DNA of 22,114 bases, taken from a virus. The notes under the pieces were generated by a model that had not been told where the DNA came from, searched no databases, and saw nothing but the letters and a program-made list of their open reading frames with translations. This document shows, in pieces, positions 2,810-22,114 of the stretch. The stretch lies in the IMG/VR virus record IMGVR_UViG_3300017952_000118, positions 1 to 22,114 of that record. One strand, written 5' to 3'. Position 1 is the first letter of the stretch; the number at the start of each line of letters is the position of its first letter. A program made the position numbers and the translations under genes.

Positions 2810-3267
2810 TATCGTAACCTTCTCAATACGATCTCAACATTCTCATTTGAGTCATATTCTTTAATTAAAAATTTTACTTGTATATGATATGCATTCTGAT
2901 CACTTAAATCATTGATGTAGACACCTTTGCATCTTACCCTTGGTTCATAGTCCTGTAATACTCTCTGAATCGATTCCTGAAGAGCCAGCTTTGTAATTTC
3001 ATCTGCGGGCTCAAAGAGTAAACCTCGGAGGTTAGCGCCGGTGGCTGCTTGAAAAGGTCGCTCATAGAAGTTTGTTAAGATTAAATTCTTGACAGCGTTC
3101 TTTACTGCCTTTTCATCCCTTAGCGGTACTATATCCTTACGGATTGGATGAAGCTTCAGGGAAAGGTCCAGATCACTCCATTCTTTCTTCTTCGCCACGA
3201 CCTTGGCGCGCTGGGTATCTCCAATTACGCCAGAAGAGTCTGATATTTGTATAGTACTTGATGCCAT
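2809..3267 (-). CDS. 25: Baseplate wedge protein gp25
   Basis: A 152-aa protein of the GpW/gp25 family, a sheath-initiating wedge component (T4 gp25 is 132 aa). Conserved family features are visible: DLDLSLKLHPIRKDIVPLRD, then AVKNAVKNLILTNFYERPF, then the RGLLFEP segment (residues about 83-89), and a C-terminal beta hairpin with VKFLIKEYD. The stop overlaps the gp6 start as TAATG. The ATG at 3267 has no Shine-Dalgarno sequence; instead a late-promoter-like CATAAATA ends five bases before it. The mRNA from that promoter may therefore be leaderless, while readthrough from upstream genes would also cover it. Confidence 0.94.
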   Translation of the reverse strand: MASSTIQISDSSGVIGDTQRAKVVAKKKEWSDLDLSLKLHPIRKDIVPLRDEKAVKNAVKNLILTNFYERPFQAATGANLRGLLFEPADEITKLALQESIQRVLQDYEPRVRCKGVYINDLSDQNAYHIQVKFLIKEYDSNENVEIVLRRLR

Positions 3268-7119: not shown

Positions 7120-7943
7120 TAGGTATCTCCTCCTTCACTGTTTCCTTCTTCATCTTCATTTGCTGGGTCTTCTGGGTATATATCTGCTCTCGTAAGTGCT
7201 CTTGTTTCTTGGAATGAAAGACTCATGTCGATCTCTGATGGTGCACCTCCGCGGAAGAAAGAATTTGATGTACTGTTATAAGTTGTGCTAAAAGATGTCA
7301 AGAAAGATTCGAATATCTGAGGAAGATAGTCGTTTTTCTTTGATCCATAAAAGAAATCTATCTGGAATGTCGCAGGATATTCCAAAGAAAGCTTACCAGA
7401 TTTCAGTGGATACATGTTCTTACGGAAGAAATTCTCTATGTCTTTTGCTGTTTTTGATTCTTTTTCTGACTCTGCAATGAGTTTAAAGTTTAAGTTAAAT
7501 GTTCTGACCTGGGTAGAATTGAATGCCATTTGTGTATATGGATTAAGTGCAACACCCTTTGCGTTTGCACCCGCAGCGGCACTAGCACCTGCAGCAGCAC
7601 CTGTAGCTAAGTTTGTAACTACTCCTCCTGGAAGAACTGATCCCAATATATTTGCCTGGAGAGAAGCAGCAATTGCATCTGATGTTGTACCACTTACTGA
7701 TCCTGTTTCCATGAATTCACTTACAACACTAATTGCACCACCAATCAGTCCTAGATCGAGTGTTCCATAGTCCATTGCATCAGGAAATGAAACCCCCTGA
7801 GGCATGTATAGGTGAACAATCTTCTTCTCTGGAGATCCTCTTTTGATAAGAGAGAATCTTACGTGAGGACTTCCATTTGAAACTTTCGATCTCAGATCAG
7901 CTGGAAAGACCAATATTGGTGTTTCTTCATTCTGTTCAGCCAT
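7119..7943 (-). CDS. 48: Baseplate tail-tube cap protein gp48 (gp48/gp54 family)
   Basis: A 274-aa protein first in the minus-strand baseplate operon. The features fit gp48, the cap that joins the baseplate to the tube. There is an early HVRFSLIKRGSPEKKIVHLYMP strand region, a hydrophobic Ala/Gly-rich insertion at residues about 105-130, and a tube-like domain with VRTFNLNFKLIAESEKESK, then a C-terminal block including TTYNSTSNSFFRGGAPSEID. The related gp54 is an alternative name, but the position before gp53 favours gp48. The start is supported by a GGAG Shine-Dalgarno six to seven bases upstream and by a late promoter at 7988-7981. Confidence 0.85.
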   Translation of the reverse strand: MAEQNEETPILVFPADLRSKVSNGSPHVRFSLIKRGSPEKKIVHLYMPQGVSFPDAMDYGTLDLGLIGGAISVVSEFMETGSVSGTTSDAIAASLQANILGSVLPGGVVTNLATGAAAGASAAAGANAKGVALNPYTQMAFNSTQVRTFNLNFKLIAESEKESKTAKDIENFFRKNMYPLKSGKLSLEYPATFQIDFFYGSKKNDYLPQIFESFLTSFSTTYNSTSNSFFRGGAPSEIDMSLSFQETRALTRADIYPEDPANEDEEGNSEGGDT

Positions 7944-7953
7944 TCTTTCTCCG

Positions 7954-7961
7954 TATAAATA
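7954..7961 (+). promoter_or_regulatory. T4-type late promoter TATAAATA for the gp4 block
   Basis: An exact match to the T4 late promoter consensus, recognised by the gp55 sigma with gp33 and the sliding clamp. It lies 26 bases before the gp4 ATG in the 44-base gap between divergent genes. Transcription would start near 7968, giving a leader of about 20 bases without a visible Shine-Dalgarno. Confidence 0.8.
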
Positions 7962-7980
7962 TAGTTAAACTTTATGGTAT

Positions 7981-7988
7981 TATTTATA
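7981..7988 (-). promoter_or_regulatory. T4-type late promoter TATAAATA for the gp48 operon
   Basis: An exact consensus match on the minus strand, facing away from the plus-strand box at 7954. Its first base is the A of the gp4 ATG. Transcription would start near 7974 and give a leader of about 30 bases containing the GGAG ribosome site of gp48. It is the only clear promoter for the left operon apart from the weaker box at 3273-3280. Confidence 0.8.
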
Positions 7989-8434
7989 TGAGTTACAAAG
8001 GAAGATATACAATTAAAAATAAATCCAAGTACCTTGGCAATCCAGATTCAGTTGTATACAGATCGTTATGGGAAAGGCAAGTGTTCAGATGGTGCGAGGA
8101 CAATCCAAGAGTGAAGAGATGGAACTCAGAAGAGATTGTTGTACCATATAAGTGTCAGATAGACAATCGTATACACAGATATTACGTTGATCTATTGGTG
8201 GAATTAGACACAAAAGAGATTATTCTTGTGGAAATTAAGCCAAAAAAACAGACACAACCCCCAAAACAACCCAAGAGAAAGACCAAGAGATATATCAATG
8301 AAGTCATGACTTATATTAAGAACAATGATAAATGGAATGCTGCTCAGAAGTATGCAGACCATAAAGGTTGGAAGTTCCAGGTTTGGACCGAAGATACTTT
8401 AAAGAATCTAGGCATCAAACTACTGAAATCTTAA
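7988..8434 (+). CDS. 4: Head completion protein gp4, PD-(D/E)XK nuclease-like
   Basis: A 148-aa protein, the size of T4 gp4 (150 aa), which acts on filled heads before tail joining. The start MSYKGRYTIKNKSKYLGNP is typical of the family. An in-frame ATG further upstream (7877) would lie inside the gp48 coding region and before the promoter, so it is rejected. A nuclease-type core is visible: Glu29 (SLWERQ), Asp68 (YYVDLLVE) and Glu82-x-Lys84 (LVEIKPK), the spacing of TnsA/PD-(D/E)XK enzymes. The middle is basic (residues 84-100). It opens the plus-strand late block under the TATAAATA at 7954. The catalytic role is inferred from motif spacing. Confidence 0.9.
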   Translation: MSYKGRYTIKNKSKYLGNPDSVVYRSLWERQVFRWCEDNPRVKRWNSEEIVVPYKCQIDNRIHRYYVDLLVELDTKEIILVEIKPKKQTQPPKQPKRKTKRYINEVMTYIKNNDKWNAAQKYADHKGWKFQVWTEDTLKNLGIKLLKS

Positions 8435-8447: not shown

Positions 8448-9035
8448 ATGGCAAGTTTATTTGACACACTACAAGCACAAGCGTTCCGAGCAGGAATACA
8501 GTCTAGGACAACAAGATCTCGTAAATGGTTCCAAAACAAGGTACAAGATCTGAGAGTACCTCCTAGAACAACCCTCTTGAAGGATGATAGATTAGAACAG
8601 ACTGATAGAACAGTTTGGGGTAACATGTACATGTATTTCTATGATCCAAAGATGAAAAAAGAACTACCTTATTATGATAGATTTCCTCTTACCATTATGA
8701 TACAACCAGCACCAGGTGGATTCCACGGATTAAATCTCCATTATTTGAACTATAATGTAAGAGCAAAATTCCTGGATGCTTTAATGGAAACAGCTCCTAA
8801 GAACGTAACAGATAAAACAAGATTAAGAATGAGATATGATTTACTTGCAAAGACTCGTAAGTATAAAGAATTTAAGCCTTGCTTTAAGCATTATTTAAGT
8901 AGTCACGTAAAGTCTAGATTCGCTCGTGTTCCGATGTCGGAATGGGAGATAGCAATATTCTTACCAGTAGAACAGTTTAAGAAATCTGATAAGAGAAAGG
9001 TCTGGTCAGATTCAGTACGTATCGCGAGAGGATAA
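8448..9035 (+). CDS. Conserved late morphogenesis protein, function unassigned
   Basis: A 195-aa basic protein. The segments MYMYFYDPKMKKELPYYDRF (residues about 61-80), FHGLNLHYLNYNVRAKFLDA and a C-terminal SEWEIAIFLPVEQFKKSDK resemble a protein I have seen beside gp4 in many T4-like genomes, usually left as a structural or hypothetical protein. The position between gp4 and the tube gene points to a head- or tail-joining role. It could correspond to one of the T4 head or tail completion proteins, but I cannot tell which. There is no signal peptide, membrane helix or catalytic motif. It starts MASLFDTLQAQ directly behind a late promoter box. Confidence 0.8.
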   Translation: MASLFDTLQAQAFRAGIQSRTTRSRKWFQNKVQDLRVPPRTTLLKDDRLEQTDRTVWGNMYMYFYDPKMKKELPYYDRFPLTIMIQPAPGGFHGLNLHYLNYNVRAKFLDALMETAPKNVTDKTRLRMRYDLLAKTRKYKEFKPCFKHYLSSHVKSRFARVPMSEWEIAIFLPVEQFKKSDKRKVWSDSVRIARG

Positions 9036-9037
9036 AA

Positions 9038-9676
9038 ATGGCAAACACAGTAGAAGATATGAAAGCGATTATATCCAAGAAAGGAGGTCTCGCGAAGACA
9101 AATCGATTCAATGTAATCTTTACACCTCCTTCGGCTTCATTGTTAAATCTAGATCCTCAGGCTATTATCGGATCTTTAATTGGTGGAAGATTTAATGTAA
9201 AGAATCTGATCAATGATCCGAGAGATATATCTTTGCTTTGTGAGAGTGCACAATTACCTGGAAGACAAATCACTACTCACGATTATATGGCACACAAACA
9301 ATCAGTTAAAATTCCTTATACATTTATAAATGAGGATGTTAGTCTTACATTCCTTCTTACAAACGATTATTCTATGAAGGTTTTGTTTGATGATTGGATG
9401 GGTTCTATAATAGATCAAAATTATAGACTATCCTATAAAAAAGAATTCACTACAGATGTTATTATTCAACAATTAGACCATGATGATGTTCCAGTGTACG
9501 GTGTGAAATTAGAAAACGCCTTTCCTACATCATTACAGGCAATTGAATTAAATAATACATCTGATAATAGTGTACAAAAGGTAACAGTGCAATTGAGTTA
9601 CGATAATTGGGTCCCAGAAGGACCGCTCAGTAGTACAGGAAGTGCTATTCGAGCAGTAATTGATGCGATAATATAA
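9038..9676 (+). CDS. 19: Tail tube protein, gp19 family
   Basis: A 212-aa protein of the T4 gp19/tube-initiator type. Family features are TNRFNVIFTPPSASLL near the N-terminus (residues about 21-36), LLCESAQLPGRQITTHDY (about 67-84), VSLTFLLTNDYSMKVLFDDW and the terminal strand VQKVTVQLSYDNWVPE. Gp19 (163 aa) stacks as hexamers to form the inner tube. This one is longer and its neighbours are hub genes, so it could instead be the gp54-like initiator on which gp19 polymerises; a second tube gene elsewhere would decide. The start has GAGAGG eight bases upstream, and the gene follows its neighbour after two bases. Confidence 0.8.
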   Translation: MANTVEDMKAIISKKGGLAKTNRFNVIFTPPSASLLNLDPQAIIGSLIGGRFNVKNLINDPRDISLLCESAQLPGRQITTHDYMAHKQSVKIPYTFINEDVSLTFLLTNDYSMKVLFDDWMGSIIDQNYRLSYKKEFTTDVIIQQLDHDDVPVYGVKLENAFPTSLQAIELNNTSDNSVQKVTVQLSYDNWVPEGPLSSTGSAIRAVIDAII

Positions 9677-12931: not shown

Positions 12932-13048
12932 TTAATATTCGCATTCCTCAGGATTCTCAGAACAATATTCTTGTATTTGTTTAATTAATACCTTAATATC
13001 GATTTCATTATCTTGCCTTTTCCCTCTGCGTGAGAAAAGGATTAATCC
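12932..13048 (-). CDS. -1 frame extension of the small exported protein
   Basis: Shifting to -1 after CCA AAA AAG gives 38 residues, GLILFSRRGKRQDNEIDIKV then LIKQIQEYCSENPEECEY, ending in TAA at 12934-12932, two bases before the terminator. This frame has no ATG, GTG or TTG anywhere between its upstream stop and its end, so it cannot be started independently in the usual way. The acidic, Cys-containing ending looks like protein. The combined product would be 125 aa. The coding sense of the extension is an inference from the shift signal and composition; it is too short to be sure by itself. Confidence 0.6.
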   Translation of the reverse strand, partial: GLILFSRRGKRQDNEIDIKVLIKQIQEYCSENPEECEY

Positions 13049-13054
13049 TTTTTT
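13016..13054 (-). promoter_or_regulatory. Probable -1 ribosomal frameshift signal (A AAA AAG plus hairpin)
   Basis: On the minus strand the zero frame is CCA AAA AAG GAT TAA. Positions 13054-13048 are A-AAA-AAG, the most efficient bacterial -1 slippery heptamer. A seven-base spacer GATTAAT (13047-13041) leads to a hairpin: CCTTTTCTC (13040-13032), loop ACGCAGA, GGGAAAAGG (13024-13016), nine pairs including one G-U. All elements have textbook spacing. Use in vivo is inferred. Confidence 0.72.
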
Positions 13055-13308
13055 GGTTCTTGCAATTCGTCAGTTTGTTTGTCAACTTCATCAGCAACTG
13101 TATCAACTACACCTACGGTAGTATCAACTGCAACTGTTGCAACAGAAACAACATCATCAGCTACTGCACCAACGATTGTTCTGGAACCTTGAACAGCCCC
13201 ATCAACAACACCTGTAGTGAATTGCTTACCGCCTTCAATGACTGCTCCTACTGATGCGCAACTAGCAGCAAAAACCAATCCGACGAATATAGAAAATAAT
13301 GCTTTCAT
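13042..13308 (-). CDS. Small exported or lipoprotein-like protein, Val/Thr-rich
   Basis: An 88-aa zero-frame product beginning MKALFSIFVGLVFAASCASV, a clear signal peptide. Cys17 after AAS could be a lipidation site, but the lipobox is weak. The mature part is a run of Val-Val/Asp-Thr units (GVVDGAVQGSRTIVGAVADD, TTVGVVDTVADEVDK) likely to form an amphipathic or membrane-associated stretch, ending in EPKKD. Similar small proteins occur in marine T4-like phages without known function. It has AGGAG six bases before the ATG, a late promoter at 13374-13367 and is a single-gene late unit. A frameshift signal at its end would replace the final Asp by 38 further residues. Confidence 0.78.
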   Translation of the reverse strand: MKALFSIFVGLVFAASCASVGAVIEGGKQFTTGVVDGAVQGSRTIVGAVADDVVSVATVAVDTTVGVVDTVADEVDKQTDELQEPKKD

Positions 13309-13361
13309 TATATTCTCCTATGCATAGGTTAATTCTGATAAAGGTTAACTTTATCCCCAAT

Positions 13362-13379
13362 TATCTTATTTATAAGATA
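13362..13379 (-). promoter_or_regulatory. Late promoter TATAAATA within a perfect palindrome
   Basis: The minus strand has TATAAATA at 13374-13367, the T4 late consensus. It is embedded in a perfect inverted repeat, TATCTTAT-TT-ATAAGATA (13362-13379). The predicted start near 13361 gives a leader of about 50 bases to the ATG at 13308. Whether the symmetry matters is unknown. Confidence 0.72.
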
Positions 13380-13402
13380 CCTTTGTCCACATGTTGAACA
13401 CT

Positions 13403-13446
13403 AAAAAAAGGGGTGCCGAGCACCCCTAAAAACCGTGAGGGTTTTT
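13403..13446 (-). terminator. 32: Tandem terminator hairpins after gp32
   Basis: Right after the gp32 stop the minus strand has AAAAACC, loop CTCAC, GGTTTTT (13446-13428), then a second, stronger hairpin GGGGTGC, loop TCG, GCACCCC (13426-13410) followed by seven T (13409-13403). This isolates gp32 from the late promoter just beyond. Confidence 0.87.
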
Positions 13447-14344
13447 AATCTTTCGCTAACCTAGCAAAATAGCTTAGAGTGTCGTCCTCATCACCGGAAT
13501 CAGAATCTAATGATTCATTAGATTCAAAGGGTGAATCATCAACAACGTTTACAGTTACTGATTTCATTTCAGGCATTTCTGCTGAAACTCCTGCATCGAC
13601 TCCAAGTACTCGATTCAGCTTTGCTTTGAGTTCATCATATGTTTTATAGTTTTTAGGATCTACAAACTCCTGAAGAGAATATAGCTTATTGTATACCTCT
13701 TCGAGTCTTGATTCATCCCCTTCAAACAATGATGCTGGAGAGCTAAACTCTGACTTATCATAGTTTACCCAACCATCAACTTTTCTGATTTTGATCTTAA
13801 AGTCAGCGCCTTCCCAGAAATCGTATGGATTCACTGGTTGTTCGTCGGCAAATTGAGGTTGCATCTGATCCATTAGTTTATCAAAGATTTTCTTACCGAA
13901 CTTGTATAAGAATACCTTACCCTCGTTCTGAGGATTTTCAGGATCAGAAATTACCAACACATTTGAAACATAATGTAGTCTTCTCTTTCTTTCACGAGCA
14001 ATAGCCTTATCCTCATCACGGCCAGAGTTCCAAAGTACAGTGTTTGACTCTGAGACTGGGTCCTGCTGCCCAATAGAAGTTAAGGAGTTTTCGATATACC
14101 ATAGACCGGTAGGACCTTTAAACCCATGATCCCAATATCTTACCCAAGGAAGATCTTCACCTTCTTTTGCGGGTAAGAATCGGATTACGGCATAACCGTT
14201 TCCTGCCTTATCTCTGGTTGGTTTCCAAAAGCGATCATCTTCATAAGATGTTGTTTCGGTTTTGGGTGAGGATACTGCTTCTGCAGCTTTTACGAGTTTG
14301 TCGATTGACGAGCCTCGGGTGCTCTTTAAGTTTGCAAATGACAT
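13445..14344 (-). CDS. 32: Single-stranded DNA-binding protein gp32
   Basis: A 299-aa protein (T4 gp32 is 301 aa) that coats ssDNA in replication, recombination and repair. The N-terminus MSFANLKSTRGS is the usual basic LAST-type motif for cooperative binding. The OB core includes DRFWKPTRDKAGNGYAVIRF, then VRYWDHGFKGPTGLWYIENS and LHYVSNVLVISDPENPQNEG. The acidic tail ends ESLDSDSGDEDDTLSYFARL, the part that contacts partner proteins. The start at 14344 is chosen because GGAG lies six to seven bases before it; the longer frame opens only with a GTG (14377). The zinc-site cysteines of T4 gp32 are absent: the His of YWDHGF remains, but WYIENS follows where the Cys cluster would be. An early promoter lies at 14424-14396. 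Confidence 0.95.
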   Translation of the reverse strand: MSFANLKSTRGSSIDKLVKAAEAVSSPKTETTSYEDDRFWKPTRDKAGNGYAVIRFLPAKEGEDLPWVRYWDHGFKGPTGLWYIENSLTSIGQQDPVSESNTVLWNSGRDEDKAIARERKRRLHYVSNVLVISDPENPQNEGKVFLYKFGKKIFDKLMDQMQPQFADEQPVNPYDFWEGADFKIKIRKVDGWVNYDKSEFSSPASLFEGDESRLEEVYNKLYSLQEFVDPKNYKTYDELKAKLNRVLGVDAGVSAEMPEMKSVTVNVVDDSPFESNESLDSDSGDEDDTLSYFARLAKD

Positions 14345-14395
14345 ATTTTTCTCCGTTGTATTTACTGAATTATCCACTTACGCATAATATTATAC

Positions 14396-14424
14396 ATTAT
14401 ATCATAATATAACATTTATGTAAA
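14396..14424 (-). promoter_or_regulatory. Early sigma70-type promoter for gp32
   Basis: TTTACA (14424-14419), 17 bp, TATAAT (14401-14396), preceded by AAGAGG. The -35 box encodes the last two residues (Phe-Thr) of gp59, so gp32 can be made independently of the upstream operon. Confidence 0.85.
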
Positions 14425-15003
14425 CCTCTTTTTAAGGATTTTTAAACATGAATCCTTATTGAAATCTACAAAGGGTGTATACTTCTCAATCTTCCTCTTG
14501 ATGTCTGGCCATATAATGGTTTCAGATATCTTTTTGGATTCCCTTGGTACAAACCCTAATATGGAATTTAGAATAACAACAGTCTCTAGACTGATCTCTT
14601 CTTGCATCCATATTTTTACTATCATCGGATGTTGTCCATCGTCTGATATAAAGTATTTATCGAAATCATATCCTAAGTCAACTAACTTATTAATATCTAC
14701 TTCGAATGTTCTGTGTATTGACTCTCTGATTTTTTTATGGTCTCTGTAATTTTGTTCGCCCCCTTCATTAAGCATCTCGCCAATATAAGAAGAGCCACGA
14801 ACAAAGTTAGAAACGAAATAATGAACAAGGTCTTTACCATAGTTCTTTGCTACCTTTGCGAAAAAATATTTATCCTTACGTTTGAAAAAAGATTGTGGTG
14901 TGATTTGGGTTTTGAAATTATATTTTATTGCATCATATGTATCTGTTTCAAAGTGAAGTTTGATTGAGTTATAAACTTTATAGGCTTCATATGGATCAGT
15001 CAT
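14416..15003 (-). CDS. 59: Helicase loader gp59
   Basis: A 195-aa basic all-helical protein (T4 gp59 is 217 aa) that loads the replicative helicase gp41 on gp32-covered forks. Recognisable are MTDPYEAYKVYNSIKLHFET at the start, a KRKDKYFFAKVAKNY segment, and YFVSNFVRGSSYIGEMLNE (residues about 62-80), followed by WMQEEISLETVVILNSILGF in the second domain. It lies between gp33 and gp32, the usual neighbourhood in marine T4-like phages. The ATG overlaps the gp33 stop (ATGA). Its final codons contain the -35 box of the gp32 promoter. Confidence 0.92.
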   Translation of the reverse strand: MTDPYEAYKVYNSIKLHFETDTYDAIKYNFKTQITPQSFFKRKDKYFFAKVAKNYGKDLVHYFVSNFVRGSSYIGEMLNEGGEQNYRDHKKIRESIHRTFEVDINKLVDLGYDFDKYFISDDGQHPMIVKIWMQEEISLETVVILNSILGFVPRESKKISETIIWPDIKRKIEKYTPFVDFNKDSCLKILKKRFT

Positions 15004-15233
15004 ACAGGTAGTGTATTTCCTTTCTTTTCTCTTAATAGATTATTTCTTTTTGCTTCTGCTTCGACTTTTTGTTTCAATGAATCAGTCATAAGCTTTGGTA
15101 CATTACGAAAATCTAATTTTCGGTACTCAACAAAATAAGTCATAGCATCTATATAGGACATATCTTCCTTTGCAACTAAAGTTTCTACGGCTTCAGAGAA
15201 CCTTTTCTTTGTCATTATCTTATCTTCAAGCAT
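15000..15233 (-). CDS. 33: Late transcription coactivator gp33
   Basis: A 77-aa protein similar to gp33 of T4-like phages (T4 gp33 is 112 aa), which binds RNA polymerase and links it to the sliding clamp for late transcription. The helical core is KKRFSEAVETLVAKEDMSYI with DAMTYFVEYRKLD, and the C-terminus ends in a short GNTLPV tail of the type that binds the clamp. The ATG at 15233 overlaps the previous gene by eight bases; Met7 (15215) is a possible alternative start. It shares ATGA with gp59. The presence of this factor fits the TATAAATA promoters in the window. Confidence 0.85.
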   Translation of the reverse strand: MLEDKIMTKKRFSEAVETLVAKEDMSYIDAMTYFVEYRKLDFRNVPKLMTDSLKQKVEAEAKRNNLLREKKGNTLPV

Positions 15234-16389
15234 CCATCACTCTTAGTAGTATACAGTCAGAATTGATTCTTCCTGTGGGTTGATATATTTTAGTTGTAAG
15301 ATTTCCCCAGATGTTCTCAATCTGTCTTGCAGTCTTGTTTAGAATCTGAGGTAGAATCTCATCAGGCTTACGTAAAGTTGTAGTTCTACTCATCTTAGGA
15401 TCAAAGAATTTAAGGGTTGATCCACTTACTTCGAATCCACTAGTTCTATCACAGATATACTCAGTGAGTTTCTTTTGCTTTACGTTATACACAAACAACC
15501 TGTAATTACCTGGTATAAGAACAGGATTAATTGATGTTAGTTTAGATTCGAGATCTTCTTTGTTATATTTAAGATTTATGACTTGCTTATCGGATGCTTT
15601 CGGCTTCTTCGCTCTTGGTATTCTTGTAGCCTTAAATGAATCTCTTAATCTTTCAAGATCAGAGAAGGCTTCATCTAGGGTTTTAATCATTGATTTCAGT
15701 TGGGGTTTAGATACATGCGAATAAGCTTCTACAGCTTGATCACAGGTTTTGTTATACGCGTCACTAAGAACTTCATAATCAAGCTGAATCATATCTTTTA
15801 CCATATTAATGGCGTTAGACTTAAGACCGGCAAGTTTGAATTTGTTGTACATATCGAACTTAATTTTATAATTACCATCAATCCATTGGTCAACAACTTC
15901 TTCTTGGAAGTCCCCATAGACTGTATCAATAACTTTTCTTCGTGTTCTTTCTACAGGAGAGATCTGAGGTGGTTTCTTTTTTTGCTCCTCTTTCTTTTCC
16001 TCTACGACTGTCCTCGCTTTTTCTAATATTTCAGAATATGCTTCACGAAAAAATTCTAGATCTCTTTCATTATTTTCCCAACCCCTAAAATGGAGTATTG
16101 CACTTTTTACCCTTAGGAATTGCCAATCTTTTAATTTCTTTAGAGCTAAGATATCTTTCTTTTTATATCCTAGTACCTCTTCAGCAAATCGAATACAGTA
16201 TGGAACATAGTCCTTTGGCTTATAATGATAGTTGTAGTAATTCATGGACTTTTGCCATACATTACCTCTTTTAACTTCGTCGGTTGGGGTTTCTCCAGGA
16301 TTAAAAATAGGCTCTGCACCAACATACTTGTCGTCCAGAGTTATCCTATTCTTTCTTAATGTAGTTCTTAATTTGTTTTCTTTTGCCAT
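15226..16389 (-). CDS. Conserved 387-aa protein upstream of gp33, function unknown
   Basis: A basic protein without a motif that I can assign. Residues about 45-70 are Tyr-rich (QKSMNYYNYHYKPKDYVPYC), about 125-145 form a Glu/Lys coiled-coil segment, and the C-terminal half includes a beta-rich region (PGNYRLFVYNVKQKKLTEYI). I recall proteins of this size beside gp33 in marine T4-like genomes, unnamed. It heads the gp33-gp59 operon, so a replication or transcription role is plausible. The early promoter at 16424-16396 places the transcription start at about the ATG itself, there is no ribosome site, and the next in-frame Met is residue 49, so the message may be leaderless. Confidence 0.82.
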   Translation of the reverse strand: MAKENKLRTTLRKNRITLDDKYVGAEPIFNPGETPTDEVKRGNVWQKSMNYYNYHYKPKDYVPYCIRFAEEVLGYKKKDILALKKLKDWQFLRVKSAILHFRGWENNERDLEFFREAYSEILEKARTVVEEKKEEQKKKPPQISPVERTRRKVIDTVYGDFQEEVVDQWIDGNYKIKFDMYNKFKLAGLKSNAINMVKDMIQLDYEVLSDAYNKTCDQAVEAYSHVSKPQLKSMIKTLDEAFSDLERLRDSFKATRIPRAKKPKASDKQVINLKYNKEDLESKLTSINPVLIPGNYRLFVYNVKQKKLTEYICDRTSGFEVSGSTLKFFDPKMSRTTTLRKPDEILPQILNKTARQIENIWGNLTTKIYQPTGRINSDCILLRVMDA

Positions 16390-16395
16390 ACGTAT

Positions 16396-16424
16396 ATTAT
16401 ACCGTAGATAAAATTAAAAGTAAA
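16396..16424 (-). promoter_or_regulatory. Early sigma70-type promoter for the gp33-gp59 operon
   Basis: TTTACT (16424-16419), 17 bp, TATAAT (16401-16396), preceded by AGGGGG. The start codon follows six bases after the -10 box, so the predicted RNA start coincides with the ATG at 16389. Confidence 0.85.
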
Positions 16425-16478
16425 CCCCCTAAGTGGACTTTTTGATAAGGAGTAAGGGATGCCACAAAGGGGGTTTAC
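16420..16478 (-). terminator. Long inverted repeat, terminator-like, overlapping a promoter
   Basis: GTAAACCCCCT (16420-16430) plus GTGG (16433-16436) pair with CCAC (16462-16465) plus AGGGGGTTTAC (16468-16478), with an AA/AA internal loop and a 25-base loop. On the minus strand it follows the 16720 gene and is trailed by TTTTAATTTT, so it could end that transcript. One arm is also the -35 region of the promoter at 16396. Confidence 0.6.
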
Positions 16479-16483
16479 GTAAA

Positions 16484-16720
16484 CTATTCTAATCCGTCTT
16501 CCCTTTTATATTTCTTAATTCCTTCAACATAGTTCTCTGCAGCGCTTTCTGCATATTCCTCACTATGTCCTTCATACCATTCAAGTCCTAAGCAACAATC
16601 TGAATCATACATACGAATACCATAAACATGATTCTCTCCTGTGCTTCGAACAACTTCTGCTTTTAGCTTTCCATTATAAAATTCGGAAAGAGTAATATAA
16701 TTTTTTGAAAGGTTCATCAT
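16484..16720 (-). CDS. Small conserved early protein, unknown
   Basis: A 78-aa protein starting MMNLSKNYITLSEFYNGKLK. The C-terminal half has RMYDSDCCLGLEWYEGHSEE then YAESAAENYVEGIKKY, a pattern I recall from unnamed small proteins of marine T4-like phages. It has two adjacent Cys, is acidic overall and has no membrane segment. The ATG overlaps the upstream stop as ATGATGA, indicating coupled translation. It is the last gene of its cassette and is followed by the long inverted repeat. Confidence 0.75.
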   Translation of the reverse strand: MMNLSKNYITLSEFYNGKLKAEVVRSTGENHVYGIRMYDSDCCLGLEWYEGHSEEYAESAAENYVEGIKKYKREDGLE

Positions 16721-16872
16721 TTTTTTCCCTTAATCATATTGTTTAAAAATCCACCTTCTTCCCAAGCAAGTGGGATATGTTTTTTTTGTCTTTTTTCCTC
16801 ACTCATATGAGCACCTACATAGACAAATAAAAGTCCTATTGTGATAACTACTAATCCTATAATAAAATCCAT
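16717..16872 (-). CDS. Small single-pass membrane protein
   Basis: A 51-aa protein, MDFIIGLVVITIGLLFVYVG at the N-terminus (one membrane helix, residues about 3-22), then a charged tail with SEEKRQKKHIPLAWEEGG. The ATG shares one base with the upstream stop (TAATG) and the stop overlaps the next start (ATGATGA), so it sits exactly in the chain of coupled genes. Function unknown. The charged cytoplasmic tail suggests an inner-membrane protein acting early in infection. Confidence 0.72.
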   Translation of the reverse strand: MDFIIGLVVITIGLLFVYVGAHMSEEKRQKKHIPLAWEEGGFLNNMIKGKK

Positions 16873-17228
16873 TATCGTGCCATCCTTGATATTTCTGTTG
16901 CTTGTTCTTGATTAATTACTGGAACTGCATTCGACTTATGCATCGTAGCAATTCCTTTGATGAGAGTTCCTGTATATTTTATAGGTTCTTTACGATCACC
17001 TTTACCAGATCCCATCTTACAGAATGTCCCATTCTTTACAGCTTCTTCCATGAGAGACTTATACTGCCTGGATTGTTCTTGCCTTAGAAGTTCCAAAGTG
17101 GATGGTTTATATTCCATTGTTTTAAATTCCACTGGCTTTTTCTTAACAGGATTTGCTGCATGTTTCTTACGACGCTTACCAGTTGGTCCGTAGCGTAGAG
17201 AACCCATATAGAAGCTAGTCATACCCAT
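16872..17228 (-). CDS. Small conserved basic protein, unknown
   Basis: A 118-aa, strongly basic protein. The N-terminus MGMTSFYMGSLRYGPTGKRR with KKHAANPVKKKP is Lys/Arg-rich. The C-terminal block KGIATMHKSNAVPVINQEQA is highly reminiscent of a conserved ending in marine T4-like phage proteins of unknown function. A nucleic-acid or ribosome contact is possible from the charge but not shown. It overlaps both neighbours by one base (TAATG). Confidence 0.77.
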   Translation of the reverse strand: MGMTSFYMGSLRYGPTGKRRKKHAANPVKKKPVEFKTMEYKPSTLELLRQEQSRQYKSLMEEAVKNGTFCKMGSGKGDRKEPIKYTGTLIKGIATMHKSNAVPVINQEQATEISRMAR

Positions 17229-17548
17229 TAGAAGGATAACTCCATTTGTTTCTTTCTTTCATGAGTCATTTGGATATCGGCTTGATTACTTTGGTAATCG
17301 TACATGATTTCTTCGATTGACTTCGGTTCCTTCATTGTAACAACTTCACCACTTGATGAGATTGTTCGAATAATAGAACCATCGTTATATTCAATGTCAG
17401 TTACATTACCATCCTCTGGCCTAGTTTCATACCACATTGAAGAGATTATATGAGTGTTAAAAAGATGTAAGGATTTTACACCCTTAGCCCACTCTTCTGC
17501 TTTTAGACGAAGTCTTTGTCTGTTTACTTCATATTCATACTGACCCAT
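17228..17548 (-). CDS. Small early protein, unknown
   Basis: A 106-aa protein, MGQYEYEVNRQRLRLKAEEW at the start, a central beta-rich part with DGSIIRTISSSGEVVTM and a polar helical ending. I do not recognise a family. It has no membrane helix or signal. The start lies 14 bases inside the end of the upstream 45-aa gene, and the stop shares one base with the next ATG, so it is part of the same coupled transcript. Confidence 0.7.
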   Translation of the reverse strand: MGQYEYEVNRQRLRLKAEEWAKGVKSLHLFNTHIISSMWYETRPEDGNVTDIEYNDGSIIRTISSSGEVVTMKEPKSIEEIMYDYQSNQADIQMTHERKKQMELSF

Positions 17549-17672
17549 TCTTACCCCCAGCCTTTGCTATTAGTTCTCTTAGTTTCTGATCCCAAAGTTT
17601 TTTGAACTCTGGATTCTTAGCATTCTTCTTCGCATTTCGAAGCGCGATAGCCCTACGTGTAACACTATCCAT
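17535..17672 (-). CDS. Very small basic protein, 45 aa
   Basis: An open frame of 45 codons starting MDSVTRRAIALRNAKKNAKN and ending GGKNGSV. Its ATG shares one base with the upstream stop (TAATG), the same junction found throughout the cassette. The composition is basic and helical, like a short nucleic-acid-binding peptide. It overlaps the next gene by 14 bases. It is called mainly on position and codon sense; function unknown. Confidence 0.62.
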   Translation of the reverse strand: MDSVTRRAIALRNAKKNAKNPEFKKLWDQKLRELIAKAGGKNGSV

Positions 17673-17944
17673 TAGTTCCACTCATCCTTCATGGATTGAT
17701 AAGTTTCGTAGTAAGAAGTACCTTGGATATAGTTCTGAGTCTCTTTCTCAGTGTAGTACATGTTTTCTTCCTTAAAGCATTCCAAAGAAGATGGAGCTTG
17801 ATGAGCTGCTTTTTTTACAGTCTTCGTAAGCTTGTTATAACTACGAACAGGTTTGCTATAGATTTTCTTAACTGTTTTCTGAAAAGCCATTTCTTCTTTT
17901 TCTTTCTTCAGAAAGTCCATTATTTCGTCAAATGAATCTGCCAT
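17672..17944 (-). CDS. Small early protein, unknown
   Basis: A 90-aa charged protein, MADSFDEIMDFLKKEKEEMA then FQKTVKKIYSKPVRSYNKLT, and a C-terminal part rich in Tyr and Glu (MYYTEKETQNYIQGTSYYET). It is helical and lacks membrane segments. It shares one base with each neighbour (TAATG junctions). No family is recognised. The repeated Tyr/Thr pattern is typical of many short early phage proteins. Confidence 0.72.
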   Translation of the reverse strand: MADSFDEIMDFLKKEKEEMAFQKTVKKIYSKPVRSYNKLTKTVKKAAHQAPSSLECFKEENMYYTEKETQNYIQGTSYYETYQSMKDEWN

Positions 17945-18273
17945 TACGCTGCCTCCTTCATATTCATATTACTAGGATTAACTGGAATAAGTCTTTCACA
18001 GAGGAACTGCTGATAGTCCTCTGAATATTCCGAAATTTGGTCTTGCCATTCAGACAAGGTTTGAACACCAATTGGAAACTCTTTTTGAGCAATGGTGTTG
18101 ATGCTGAAAGCAGCCATCACGAATGCCATAGCATCTTGAGGTCGATCCAAACCAGTAACAAGATAGTCGCTACCGTTTTTGAATTTCCAATAAGAATTCC
18201 CAGATGAGAATTTACCATCCTCACAGTGAGCCCCATAATTTTCGAGATATTGTGTACTAACTACGAATTCCAT
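17944..18273 (-). CDS. Small conserved early protein (TQYLENYGAH type)
   Basis: A 109-aa protein. The start MEFVVSTQYLENYGAHCEDG followed by YWKFKNGSDYLV is a pattern I know from unnamed proteins common in T4-like marine phages. The middle is helical (AMAFVMAAFSINTIAQKEFP). No catalytic residues are obvious. The start is well supported: AAGGAG lies six bases before the ATG, and the early promoter at 18332-18304 precedes it, so this is the first gene of a six-gene coupled cassette running to 16484. Confidence 0.8.
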   Translation of the reverse strand: MEFVVSTQYLENYGAHCEDGKFSSGNSYWKFKNGSDYLVTGLDRPQDAMAFVMAAFSINTIAQKEFPIGVQTLSEWQDQISEYSEDYQQFLCERLIPVNPSNMNMKEAA

Positions 18274-18303
18274 AACTTACTCCTTTTTTTAAATTACCTG
18301 TAT

Positions 18304-18332
18304 ATTATACCAAATTTTTGGCCCCTTGTAAA
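18304..18332 (-). promoter_or_regulatory. Early sigma70-type promoter for the small-gene cassette
   Basis: TTTACA (18332-18327), 17 bp, TATAAT (18309-18304), preceded by TAGGGGGG and followed by AGGGGCC. The leader is about 24 bases and carries AAGGAG. Confidence 0.88.
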
Positions 18333-18352
18333 CCCCCCTAGGTGAAAAAAAC

Positions 18353-18562
18353 TCAACTTTTTTCATCCAAGCACTCAACGGTAACCCTGTATTGGGTACC
18401 ATATTTGTCCTCAACCGAGATGGTTTTCTTTGTAGATTTAAAGTAACCCTCAGGGGTTAAATCCATTTTAGGGTAGGACACATTAGATAACATTGGATCG
18501 TGTGTCTTCAAAGATTTCGAAATTGAATCAGCAATATAATCACAATAAACTAAACCTTTCAT
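18353..18562 (-). CDS. Small early protein, unknown
   Basis: A 69-aa protein beginning MKGLVYCDYIADSISKSLKT and ending with a beta-rich TISVEDKYGTQYRVTVECLD. The start at 18562 is preferred over a longer frame opening at 18619, because its ATG overlaps the stop of the small membrane gene upstream (ATGA) and GGAG lies nearby. No family recognised. It is the last gene before the promoter at 18332, so it ends the 19237 transcript. Confidence 0.72.
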   Translation of the reverse strand: MKGLVYCDYIADSISKSLKTHDPMLSNVSYPKMDLTPEGYFKSTKKTISVEDKYGTQYRVTVECLDEKS

Positions 18563-18678
18563 GACCAAACTCCTATATAAGCCATTACAGTAATGATTGT
18601 GGCACAGATGAAGATCCAAACAATGACCTTAGCAATAGCTGTAACCAAATCTCCTAAAAATCCAAAAAAGTGTTTCAT
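18559..18678 (-). CDS. Very small membrane protein, 39 aa
   Basis: An open frame of 39 codons, MKHFFGFLGDLVTAIAKVIV then WIFICATIITVMAYIGVWS, almost entirely one membrane helix after a short amphipathic start. It fits precisely between neighbours: TAATG at its start and ATGA at its end. An amphipathic or holin-like toxicity cannot be judged from sequence. It is called on the exact junctions and membrane composition. Confidence 0.68.
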   Translation of the reverse strand: MKHFFGFLGDLVTAIAKVIVWIFICATIITVMAYIGVWS

Positions 18679-18863
18679 TATAAAGATACCTCCACGAATT
18701 TTCTTCCACGTTGTTCGAAAGTCTTTGGCTTAGAGAACACAAAGGGAGTGTCAGTACCTTCCTTGATGTACCCCACCATTTTCTGATTCTCTATCATATA
18801 GGTATGACACGGAACACGATAATCTGTTTTCCAATCAGAGGTTATTTCTTTTAGAAACTTCAT
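18678..18863 (-). CDS. Small conserved early protein, unknown
   Basis: A 61-aa protein, MKFLKEITSDWKTDYRVPCH then TYMIENQKMVGYIKEGT and KTFEQRGRKFVEVSL. The order of a Trp-Lys-x-Asp-Tyr-x-Val-Pro segment, a TY strand and GYIKEGT matches an unnamed small protein that I recall from marine T4-like phages. It looks like a compact beta fold. It shares one base with each neighbour (TAATG). Confidence 0.75.
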   Translation of the reverse strand: MKFLKEITSDWKTDYRVPCHTYMIENQKMVGYIKEGTDTPFVFSKPKTFEQRGRKFVEVSL

Positions 18864-19237
18864 TATGCTGCCACCTCAATTTCGTCGAATCCAAATCCAG
18901 CGACGATATAGTGCTTATTCGTTTCATTATCAACAATGATGTCACCAACTGAAGTTGAATGACCACGTTCGTAGATATGGACCTTTTCCAAATCATTCCA
19001 CATATTGGTTAGATGGAAAACGTGATCTAAGCTTTCGGCTTGGACCAAGAACTTATCGTTATAGAGAGCAATATCGTCCTTATTGAATATATCACCTTCA
19101 CGGTCTTGAAAGTGCATATAGTCCATCTTTGCCCTCCACTTATCTGAACGAGCGACTGCGCCATCCCAACCAAGTTTGTTAGGCATGTCATCTTCTTCTT
19201 TGTTAAAAGTGATTTGTTTAACGGTGTATGTTTTCAT
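18863..19237 (-). CDS. Early protein with a YodL-like C-terminal segment
   Basis: A 124-aa acidic protein beginning MKTYTVKQITFNKEEDDMPN. The second half reads HVFHLTNMWNDLEKVHIYER then GHSTSVGDIIVDNETNKHY and IVAGFGFDEIEV. The run HSxSVGDII...Y.V.GFGF resembles the YodL-type module found in phage and plasmid proteins of unknown role; this is a distant similarity by eye. The start at 19237 is chosen because AAGGA precedes it; a frame six codons longer opens only with TTG and would cover the ribosome site. It is the first gene after the early promoter at 19293-19265. Confidence 0.75.
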   Translation of the reverse strand: MKTYTVKQITFNKEEDDMPNKLGWDGAVARSDKWRAKMDYMHFQDREGDIFNKDDIALYNDKFLVQAESLDHVFHLTNMWNDLEKVHIYERGHSTSVGDIIVDNETNKHYIVAGFGFDEIEVAA

Positions 19238-19264
19238 AATGTAGTTCCTTATCAAGATGTGTCT

Positions 19265-19293
19265 ATTATACCAAATCTCGGGGGCCTTGTAAA
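19265..19293 (-). promoter_or_regulatory. Early sigma70-type promoter for the 19237 operon
   Basis: TTTACA (19293-19288), 17 bp, TATAAT (19270-19265), preceded by AAAAGGGGG and followed by AGGCCCCC. It serves the YodL-like gene and its three downstream partners. Confidence 0.88.
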
Positions 19294-19321
19294 CCCCCTT
19301 TTCGTGACTTTTTCGTGACGT

Positions 19322-19396
19322 TTAGTTGGTGAATGGAAGGTGGAATGGGAAGCATTTTGAGAAGACCTGAAGCTCTTTTCGATAGGCCTCTTTTTC
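19322..19396 (-). other. In-frame coding continuation after the TAG of the metallopeptidase
   Basis: Directly after the TAG (19399-19397) the same frame stays open for 24 codons, reading EKEAYRKELQVFSKCFPFHL to a TAA at 19324-19322. With Trp in place of the stop, the junction would read NQPWEKEAYRKE, a pattern typical of this peptidase family. One base (TGG to TAG) explains the stop. It may be a nonsense mutation, readthrough, or an error in the sequence. Confidence 0.62.
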
Positions 19397-19741
19397 CTAT
19401 GGTTGGTTCTTGTATTTGTATCCCTCTGCAGATCGACCTTTCCAAGCCCATTGACCTTGAGAGGCGTCCAATTCTTTTCGGAGGAATTGCTTCGCATGGA
19501 TCATTTCATGTGCTAGGGTCTGCATCATTTCCATGAAGGTGAATTCACCCTTAGAAATATCGATCTCGATGATTCCATAATCGTAAGAGCATAGGCCTGA
19601 AGCTTCGGTAAGTTTTTTGCTGAAGGTAATAACAATAGGTTTTTTGAACCTAGAAATTTTTAGGTGTTTGGCTATGTTCTGTACGTATTCGTGTACGGTA
19701 GCTTTGTTTTTAATCTGACCTTTGATAAGTACTGGTACCAT
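19397..19741 (-). CDS. SprT-like zinc metallopeptidase, ended early by TAG
   Basis: A 114-aa protein with the zincin motif HEMIH at residues 78-82 (preceded by MEMMQTLA), followed by AKQFLRKELD and an aromatic WAWKGRSAEGYKYKNQP ending. Similar small peptidases occur in many T4-like phages; their substrate is unknown. The start at 19741 (MVPVLIKG) is chosen because AAAGGA lies eight bases upstream and the promoter at 19801-19773 would start RNA about at the longer ATG (19768). The protein stops at TAG, but coding sense resumes immediately after it. In relatives the part following NQP probably carries the third zinc ligand (a PWExEA-type helix), so the 114-aa product could be inactive. Confidence 0.75.
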   Translation of the reverse strand: MVPVLIKGQIKNKATVHEYVQNIAKHLKISRFKKPIVITFSKKLTEASGLCSYDYGIIEIDISKGEFTFMEMMQTLAHEMIHAKQFLRKELDASQGQWAWKGRSAEGYKYKNQP

Positions 19742-19772
19742 TTTTTGGGTCCTTTTTATTAAATACATGAGT

Positions 19773-19801
19773 ATTCTATCATATTTAGGGGCCCTTGTAA
19801 A
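19773..19801 (-). promoter_or_regulatory. Early sigma70-type promoter for the metallopeptidase
   Basis: TTTACA (19801-19796), 17 bp, TAGAAT (19778-19773), preceded by TTAGGGGG and followed by AGGGCCCC. The RNA start falls near 19766-19768, which excludes the ATG at 19768 as a normally led start and supports 19741. Confidence 0.85.
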
Positions 19802-19834
19802 CCCCCTAAATCAACTTTTTTTCAACTTTTTTCT

Positions 19835-19921
19835 CTAATAAAATCAATAACTTATGTGTATATTGCTCTAAGTATATGATTTATATAGAGATTTATTTTT
19901 CCTAATAAAATCAATAACTTA
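19835..19921. repeat. Two 20-bp direct repeats in an AT-rich gap
   Basis: CTAATAAAATCAATAACTTA occurs at 19835-19854 and again at 19902-19921, 67 bp apart. They lie in the 131-base non-coding gap (19802-19932) between the secreted-protein gene and the early promoter. The gap otherwise holds A/T runs and a TATAAATC sequence (minus, 19885-19878) close to the late consensus. No gene is seen in it. Confidence 0.7.
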
Positions 19922-19932
19922 AGAAATTACCC

Positions 19933-20451
19933 CTATCTTTTACTGCAATTCCTCTTGGCTCTATCATATACCTTCAGATTGTTATGGACTACAATTGAGG
20001 TTATTATTGTTGTAGGCATAAGAACCTCATCTGTAATTAAGCCTCTTCGGTCTATCTCAGGTAATAGATTACCGAATATGAAGGTTTTTAAAAGTATCAT
20101 TTCGCGAACTTCAGGTACCCTTGGTAATAAAGGATTCATTTCATATACACAATCGTAAGCGAGGGCTCTTTTGGTAGACCAGATATCTCCAGCTTGAGCC
20201 AGAAAAAATAATGTCCAGGTAGCTAAGCTGGCAGGATCCTCCTCTGTTATTTTTATATCATTTAATATATTAGATTCAATAATGTATATTTCAGGGGATC
20301 TGTGTCTTTTTATATATTCTTCGTTATATGGTGCATAATACCCAGCATCAAATAATACCTTTCTTTGAGGAGATATATCTGCTTGTACTGAAGTACTTAT
20401 AAGAAGTATTCCAAGTATTAATTTATTTAGTTGTAGCAATAAAGACTCCAT
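19933..20451 (-). CDS. Secreted or membrane small protein next to the cyclase
   Basis: A 172-aa protein with a signal peptide, MESLLLQLNKLILGILLIST and SVQA before a likely cleavage at DIS. The second half resembles an uncharacterised phage and bacterial domain (DUF5658-like by eye): TWTLFFLAQAGDIWSTKRAL followed by DCVYEMNPLLPRVP, where a Asp-x-x-x-Thr helix and Glu-x-Asn-Pro-Leu are the marks, then hydrophobic helices. The C-terminus is basic. The start lies 29 bases inside the cyclase coding end, so the two are co-translated. The role is unknown; it could be a periplasmic or membrane partner of the cyclase, which is inference from the overlap only. Confidence 0.78.
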   Translation of the reverse strand: MESLLLQLNKLILGILLISTSVQADISPQRKVLFDAGYYAPYNEEYIKRHRSPEIYIIESNILNDIKITEEDPASLATWTLFFLAQAGDIWSTKRALAYDCVYEMNPLLPRVPEVREMILLKTFIFGNLLPEIDRRGLITDEVLMPTTIITSIVVHNNLKVYDRAKRNCSKR

Positions 20452-22114
20452 CCCAATCCTTCGGTAAATCTTGCGTTTTCATATATTCGCAACGCTCTAT
20501 CCACATATCATAATAGTTATCCATTTTACCATCAAACTCACCTTTTAAATCATTACAGAATTTTATAGCCATATCAAATTGTTGTGATCTATATAACTCA
20601 TGCATCTTATTATGTGTATCTTGTCTTGAGGGCCAATCTGTATTATGCCATGCCCAAAACCATGTATCTAAAACTGTATAAATCCCTATACCAACACTCT
20701 TACCTTTTACTGCAAGATCATCAATCTTAAGGAAAAAGAAATCCTCCTCACATTGTTTTACAGTAGATTCACCAACTAATAATAAGCAACCATACTCTTT
20801 GCATTTAGATTCTATTCTTGCTGCTGTGCTAACTGCATCTCCTAAAACATCATATGAATGCCTGCTTGTACTTCCCATTTCTCCAAGGTAACCCAAGCCA
20901 CTATTAATTCCAGCACCCATACCAATCGGAGGTCTACCTTCGGCTGTGATTTTTTCATTAAACCTCTCCACTGCCTTTAACATATTGAGTCCAGTTTGGA
21001 CTGCGCTCTTTGGATGATTTGGGTCATCATTTGGAGCATTATGGACATGCATACTAGCATCACCAATATACTTTATAATCATACCATCTGCATTCAATAC
21101 TGGTTGTGTAATAGCATCCATATATTCGTTCATGAGTTTAGTTAATCCCTTTACATCATCACCAAAGGATTCTCCCAATGGGGTAAATCCTCTTAGGTCA
21201 GAGAAGCATATAGAAATTTCCCTTTTCATACCGTCTTTAATTAATGATGGATTTTCTTGTAACATACGAACGACTGTTGGAGAGCAATATCCTGCAAACT
21301 GTTTTTGTATTTCTTGTCTAAGTTTAAATTGAACCCAGAAGTTATTAAATGAAGCAGATGCGAATGATATTATAAATATTAGTATGACTATAGTTGGGGA
21401 AAGAAGTATTCCAAAGTTAGTCCAAGAATACCAGAATCCTCCTAAAACACCAGAAGATAAAGATATAAAGGTAATTAATGATGCCCAAAGTGGAAGATAA
21501 TATACACCCAATACAATCAAAAGAGATCCAATTAGAGTTAGACCTATTTCCAATAGAGATCCATATATCGGACGAGAAATTGATTGATCCGATAATATTG
21601 TCTGCAGAGACATTGCCTGAAGATGATGAGCTGGAAGAAGACCAACCGGTGTTGCTATCTGAGAAGCTACCCCACTTGCAGTTAGACCTACAATTATAGT
21701 TTTACCTTGTAGGTTAGGAAGAGTATCAACCCCATACTCATATCTTTCAAATTCATAATTGGTATTTAACCATATAGATCCATTTGCATCTGTAGGTATT
21801 TGAAATGGTCTCAATATAATTTCTTCGATTCCTAAATCATTTACCTTAATCGTATATGATGGTTTCTCGTTTAATATTCTGATTGTCTCTAAAGAAAATG
21901 ATGGATATAATTCATTATTAATCTGAGATAGAAGAGGAATCCTTCTTGTAACACCATCAACTTCTGGCATACCATTTATTAATCCCACACCCCAAGCCTG
22001 TTCTTCGATTATAGGAATATTTGTTACGAGTCCATTATATCGTATTGCCCAATCAAGAGGATCACCAGTACCAAACACAGCGGTACCTACATAAGGAGCC
22101 TTTTCACTTCTTCC
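20423..22114 (-). CDS. CHASE2-type membrane class III nucleotide cyclase (partial at right edge)
   Basis: The frame is open to the window edge; 563 residues are seen and the start lies outside. Numbering here begins at the codon at 22078. Residues 1-165 are the C-terminal part of a CHASE2 extracellular sensor (AWGVGLINGMPEVDGVTRR and LQGKTIIVGLTASGVASQ). Three membrane helices follow (about 173-245). The cyclase domain spans about 285-470: metal Asp294 (ICFSDLRGFT) and Asp340 (KYIGDASM), base-selecting Lys336 and Asp410 (SYDVLGDAV), catalytic Arg421 (AARIE). Lys and Asp predict ATP as substrate. The usual Asn four residues before the Arg is Ser417. A helical tail ending DWDGVFIATTK is typical of CHASE2 cyclases. 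It probably makes cAMP in response to a periplasmic signal. Confidence 0.9.
   Translation of the reverse strand, partial: GRSEKAPYVGTAVFGTGDPLDWAIRYNGLVTNIPIIEEQAWGVGLINGMPEVDGVTRRIPLLSQINNELYPSFSLETIRILNEKPSYTIKVNDLGIEEIILRPFQIPTDANGSIWLNTNYEFERYEYGVDTLPNLQGKTIIVGLTASGVASQIATPVGLLPAHHLQAMSLQTILSDQSISRPIYGSLLEIGLTLIGSLLIVLGVYYLPLWASLITFISLSSGVLGGFWYSWTNFGILLSPTIVILIFIISFASASFNNFWVQFKLRQEIQKQFAGYCSPTVVRMLQENPSLIKDGMKREISICFSDLRGFTPLGESFGDDVKGLTKLMNEYMDAITQPVLNADGMIIKYIGDASMHVHNAPNDDPNHPKSAVQTGLNMLKAVERFNEKITAEGRPPIGMGAGINSGLGYLGEMGSTSRHSYDVLGDAVSTAARIESKCKEYGCLLLVGESTVKQCEEDFFFLKIDDLAVKGKSVGIGIYTVLDTWFWAWHNTDWPSRQDTHNKMHELYRSQQFDMAIKFCNDLKGEFDGKMDNYYDMWIERCEYMKTQDLPKDWDGVFIATTK

Follow-up and report, generated by a model that had tools for sequence, protein, structure and literature searches.

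A CHASE2 receptor cyclase gene with a variant active site in a T4-like phage contig, from the family found in phage curli–FecR modules

Podoviruses and myoviruses of SAR11 bacteria carry a type VIII secretion (curli) module that consists of CsgF, CsgG, curlins, FecR and an adenylate cyclase (Wittmers et al. 2022, PMC9599517), the curli part of which was also described by Zaragoza-Solas et al. 2020 (PMC7029224) and Buchholz et al. 2022 (PMC9004378). Among the roles proposed for the phage curli system are aggregation by means of the fibres, import of nutrients and the timing of lysis, and an alphaproteobacterial origin of the module has been reported (PMC9599517). A word search of that paper returned no mention of CHASE2 or catalysis, and we found no literature on phage-encoded cyclases beyond it. 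Related receptors are known from bacteria. An operon of FecR and a CHASE2 histidine kinase controls biofilm in Burkholderia (PMC5192318), and CHASE2 cyclases of S. meliloti increase cAMP upon an external protein signal that arrives via the outer-membrane beta-barrel NsrA (PMC13001267), a precedent for signal input from an outer-membrane protein to such a cyclase.

We analysed a stretch of 22,114 bases (the window), which is an entire IMG/VR record and ends inside a cyclase gene (Table 1). The contig is T4-like, as the original prediction had described it, with strong PHROGs matches to gp32, gp59, baseplate wedge and tail tube proteins. A gene for a protein with a TnsA-like endonuclease N-terminal domain (Pfam, 6.4e-18) lies between tail genes (7877–8434, + strand). 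An independent IMG/VR record (L024) matches positions 13237–21019 of the window at 99.9% identity. Because the junction between the cyclase and gp32 recurs in this second record, it is not a unique chimera, and the concern that the edge of the window might be an assembly artefact is not supported on the cyclase–gp32 side.

Table 1. Features of the window around the cyclase gene and its associated gene families.
Feature	Positions	Strand	Remarks
CHASE2–class III adenylate cyclase gene	20423..22114	-	Truncated at the 5' end by the contig edge; 563 aa are visible
Visible part of the periplasmic CHASE2 sensor, plus three membrane helices, up to the linker	21336..22114	-	Pfam and hydrophobic segments
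Catalytic domain core, from the FSDLRGF metal motif to VKGK	20696..21205	-	Variant D..S active site
D..S active-site stretch SYDVLGDAVSTAARIE	20857-20810	-	Inside the catalytic core
C-terminal tail DWDGVFIATTK	20423..20458	-	Shared with alphaproteobacterial CHASE2 cyclases
172-aa predicted membrane protein, weakly DUF5658-like	19933..20451	-	Overlaps the cyclase stop by 29 nt
88-aa putative lipoprotein	13042..13308	-	Adjoins gp32 in the window

The reading frame has no start codon and is 551 amino acids long when counted from the first GTG; full-length relatives have 611–707 amino acids. Its CHASE2 match (Pfam, 2.3e-18; 67.1 bits against a gathering score of 26.3) spans positions 102–249 of the 257 in the profile, and the first approximately 100 are missing because the gene is cut at the contig end. 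The Guanylate_cyc match (7.8e-17; 61.9 bits against 21.9) exceeds the family cut-off and establishes homology to class III nucleotide cyclases. Between the two domains are three hydrophobic segments (approximately residues 186–252), and the order of CHASE2, three membrane helices and catalytic domain is that of a receptor cyclase. The original prediction of such an architecture in a gene on a T4-like contig, including the sensor region, the three helices and the DWDGV tail, is thus borne out. An AlphaFold2 model of the full-length relative L002, built from an alignment of 57 sequences that included the window, has a pLDDT of 90. It shows an N-terminal helix, then a periplasmic domain of mixed alpha/beta structure, three long helices and the cyclase domain. 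Its matches in the PDB are class III cyclases (CyaB 3r5g, 6fht and CyaC), and its catalytic domain aligns with P. aeruginosa CyaB (3r5g) at a TM score of 0.88 by target length. The protein is a real, intact-looking phage receptor cyclase and a predicted user of ATP.

The gene was originally thought to have no described counterpart in phages, but cyclases are annotated in two isolates and belong to the module of PMC9599517. Searches of complete isolate genomes with tblastn recovered four Melnitz strains (57% identity over 99%) and HTVC008M (35%); the genes of both Melnitz (OM43 host) and HTVC008M (SAR11 host) are annotated as adenylate/guanylate cyclase. The Melnitz protein (QZI94387.1), from a T4-like phage, resembles that of the window over nearly the whole visible length and has the same D/S active site (see below). 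It is encoded by the last gene of a csgF–csgG–curlin–FecR–curlin module. However, its sensor is just 36% identical, its genome position is not the same, and no 172-amino-acid partner gene was detected beside it. HTVC008M (YP_007517885.1) shares the CHASE2–cyclase architecture and the module of the family of the window cyclase, but has the canonical Asn site and lacks the DWDGV tail. The window gene is a further member of the cyclase family of the described phage module; the D/S site and the exchange of sensor and catalytic halves were not found described.

Two scans of viral contigs yielded at least 104 cyclase loci, and we counted module genes by profile searches over all open reading frames of these loci. 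Among the listed viral loci with 6.5 kb or more of sequence before the cyclase, 55 of 56 encode csgG, curlin and FecR on the cyclase strand and 53 of 56 csgF, usually in the order csgF, csgG, curlin, FecR, curlin, cyclase. Beyond the upstream side of the cyclase, relatives have curli genes and then phage genes. Many of the module cyclases are 56–62% identical to that of the window, which places the window gene in the module family, and its own csg genes may lie just past the contig edge. This operon context, which was outside the view of the original prediction, is the main clue to function.

Two further gene families found beside the cyclase in relatives tie the window to the curli module. 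The 172-amino-acid family adjoins the cyclase, upstream or downstream, in 18 relatives among the matches listed. For this family, structure modelling predicts a helical membrane protein (pLDDT of 78), the resemblance to DUF5658 is a weak match in relatives, a structure search returned one significant match (a viral protein without an assigned function), and the window gene has no PADLOC match. Homologues of the 88-amino-acid lipoprotein occur inside the curli module, directly upstream of the cyclase, in approximately 16 of the relatives listed; the lipoprotein gene is probably a module gene that has been displaced in the window phage. Most module loci also have homologues of two small proteins (92–115 amino acids, phrog_18771; 8871–9149 and 9162–9509 in L026), one of which has a weak holin match, and which are encoded either before csgF or downstream of the cyclase on the opposite strand. 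The genes that precede csgF are termed histidine kinases in PMC9599517; Pfam found no kinase domain in the small proteins before csgF, which are possibly the ones meant. Large viral contigs of 245, 168 and 152 kb (L140, L187 and L161) carry the module as well, so it is not confined to one phage size class.

The nearest relative of the window among the matches listed, L002, has no csg genes in the 2.1 kb that its contig offers upstream of the cyclase. Directly upstream of its 172-amino-acid gene and cyclase are a cytochrome c gene and a gene for a 412-amino-acid unclassified CxxCH protein (1–1519).

A profile scan of GTDB genomes found 80 bacterial loci. One of them, L033 (JADHSL010000081.1, a 64% match labelled Pirellulales), was rejected as a close bacterial relative: it is an 11.5-kb contig from a metagenome-assembled genome that carries the curlin, FecR and cyclase genes of the phage module and is probably a misbinned phage contig. 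Apart from it, no close relatives were found in bacterial genomes. None of the other 79 loci has csg genes beside the cyclase in flanks of up to 8 kb. A FecR gene lies within approximately 500 bp of the cyclase in about 18 of the 79 by profile, and three of these neighbours were confirmed with Pfam. Such pairs without curli suggest that FecR and the CHASE2 cyclase are a bacterial pair that appears to have been joined to curli genes in phages. Alphaproteobacterial CHASE2 cyclases, for example those of the S. meliloti CyaD1/CyaD2/CyaK type, share CHASE2 and the class III domain with the window protein, and in the genomes searched the homology of the C-terminal region extends up to the last residues. 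Relatives of the catalytic domain and tail occur in 234 of 385 alphaproteobacterial genomes, but with at most 40% identity, the canonical Asn and no curli genes nearby.

A search of 22 phage records, the complete Melnitz and HTVC008M genomes among them, detected no cNMP_binding domain. We also examined 150 genomes of the putative host order, which are small alphaproteobacterial genomes from the order of G052. This order is probably Pelagibacterales; one strong match to the SAM-V riboswitch was found in it (G412, 70.8 bits). The cNMP_binding domain exceeds the cut-off in 58 of the 150 genomes; class III cyclases occur in 47, and CHASE2 in none. A cAMP target is thus available in some such hosts and absent, by the profile test, in most. 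In locus L226 (57–1343, + strand; 1354–3024, − strand), and also in L229, a soluble class III cyclase gene is convergent with a gene for a channel that combines MS_channel and cNMP_binding domains. The pair is likely to be a cAMP system native to the order, present in about a third of its genomes.

The absence of cNMP-binding domains from the 22 phage records and from most genomes of the putative host order makes a simple CRP route doubtful. The roles suggested originally, raising host cAMP to redirect metabolism or interfering with nucleotide-based defence, are not supported either. A free-standing host-manipulation gene that increases host cAMP and redirects metabolism through CRP or a cAMP-gated channel, independently of curli, would also be at odds with a periplasmic sensor that has been kept and diversified rather than lost, and with the curli/FecR genes that precede the cyclase in nearly every listed relative with enough flanking sequence. 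We consider this explanation unlikely, although it would accommodate both L002, in which the cyclase and the 172-amino-acid gene have no csg genes nearby, and the host-order genomes with a cNMP-binding protein, including the channel beside the native cyclase.

The catalytic residues named in the original prediction are all present (metal-binding Asp306 and Asp352, base-site Lys348 and Asp422, and catalytic Arg433; numbering of the reading frame), but it overlooked that Ser replaces the transition-state Asn in the VNxAxR motif (VSTAAR). The register of the motif was confirmed by alignment to P. aeruginosa CyaB. The Ser marks a variant without excluding membership of class III, because the family is defined by its fold and other residues. 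Among the 108 phage and 79 bacterial cyclases in the matches listed, both metal Asp residues and the catalytic Arg are kept, and the base-site Lys nearly always is. Asp at the second base-site position combined with Ser at the transition-state position is found in 72 of the 108 phage enzymes, including that of the window; the remaining 36 have Ser or Thr at the base site together with Asn, as in bacteria. The aligned bacterial relatives, a sample of best-scoring matches only, have Asn at the transition-state position in 79 of 79 cases and in 29 of 29 further alphaproteobacterial ones, and Ser in none of these 108. Because the search pattern allowed both Asn and Ser, this absence was not forced by the search. 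The D/S active site, which sets these phage enzymes apart from all sampled bacterial relatives, looks new.

In mammalian adenylyl cyclase, the transition-state Asn plays an important part. Its replacement in the 72 phage enzymes could therefore be taken to mean that the D/S site leaves the enzyme nearly inactive and that the protein is mainly a scaffold or sensor. We regard this as improbable, given that the metal Asp residues, the Lys and the catalytic Arg are kept in essentially all enzymes and that the catalytic domain is the best-conserved part of the protein (83–93% identity in most pairs, versus approximately 30% for distant sensors). Purifying selection on the catalytic domain is strong (dN/dS near 0.03–0.06 in unsaturated pairs), which argues for an active enzyme. 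Nevertheless, the Ser could lower or change cyclase activity, and this counts against our main reading.

It is very improbable that the product is a different cyclic nucleotide (cUMP, cCMP or cGMP) or that the protein is a decoy against Pycsar/CBASS-type defence. PycC profiles do match the catalytic domain (5e-16), and D/S replaces the T or S/N of bacterial relatives. However, the PycC models describe class III cyclases and should match any domain of this kind; Lys and Asp together form the canonical set for ATP, and the protein is a membrane receptor with no adjoining effector gene. Assignment as a Pycsar cyclase was likewise rejected, because there is profile overlap only, no PycTM or PycTIR effector lies beside the gene and the neighbours in relatives are curli/FecR genes.

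The sensor and catalytic halves of these proteins have separate histories. Among the Ser-type phages of a first alignment, the catalytic domains are at least 81% identical in all pairs, and sensor identity falls to approximately 30%. L025 and L003 share 79% identity in the sensor and 41% in the catalytic half, with the fall at the KQF linker, and L026 and L108 likewise resemble each other more in the sensor than in the catalytic half. The Ser type forms one clade in the catalytic tree (support of 100) and requires five changes on the sensor tree, where keeping it together is rejected (delta lnL of 293; AU test, p = 0.00016). Recombination at the linker is the simplest reading of this mismatch. 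Sensor and enzyme halves thus seem to have been swapped between phages, which also looks new. Single metagenomic contigs may be chimeric, but the pattern spans more than one contig. We also raise, as a rather unlikely possibility, that receptor cyclases of marine phages place periplasmic sensors swapped by recombination before a conserved, phage-specific catalytic module (Asp and Ser) with altered kinetics or product, and so combine a swappable input with a fixed nucleotide output during infection.

On balance, we think it probable that the protein is an active adenylate cyclase and signals the state of a curli/FecR envelope module made by the phage. The domains, catalytic residues, purifying selection, synteny in relatives and module exchange on which this reading draws are established from the sequences compared. 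We hypothesize that the infecting phage installs a CsgG/CsgF pore in the outer membrane and that curlin-repeat proteins and a periplasmic FecR-domain protein are exported during infection. The cyclase would be an inner-membrane receptor, with an N-terminal helix, periplasmic CHASE2, three membrane helices and a dimerizing cytoplasmic class III domain, and would provide the signalling output of the phage-borne curli (type VIII secretion) module. CHASE2, perhaps with FecR and the 172-amino-acid membrane partner, would sense the state of the envelope system, and the sensed state would switch the conversion of ATP to cAMP, the product suggested by the catalytic residues. FecR or curlin is the presumed input to CHASE2, gene adjacency being the one line of evidence for contact between FecR and CHASE2, and a downstream effect on host or phage is likewise presumed. 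Two further observations count against this reading: no cNMP-binding protein was found in the 22 phage records or in most genomes of the putative host order, and L002 has no csg genes within its 2.1 kb.

The cyclase is the only evident signal output of the curli module. If cAMP is made, and if its production is tied to curli and FecR, these phages would equip streamlined hosts, which have no CHASE2 receptors of their own, with a transmembrane signalling circuit.
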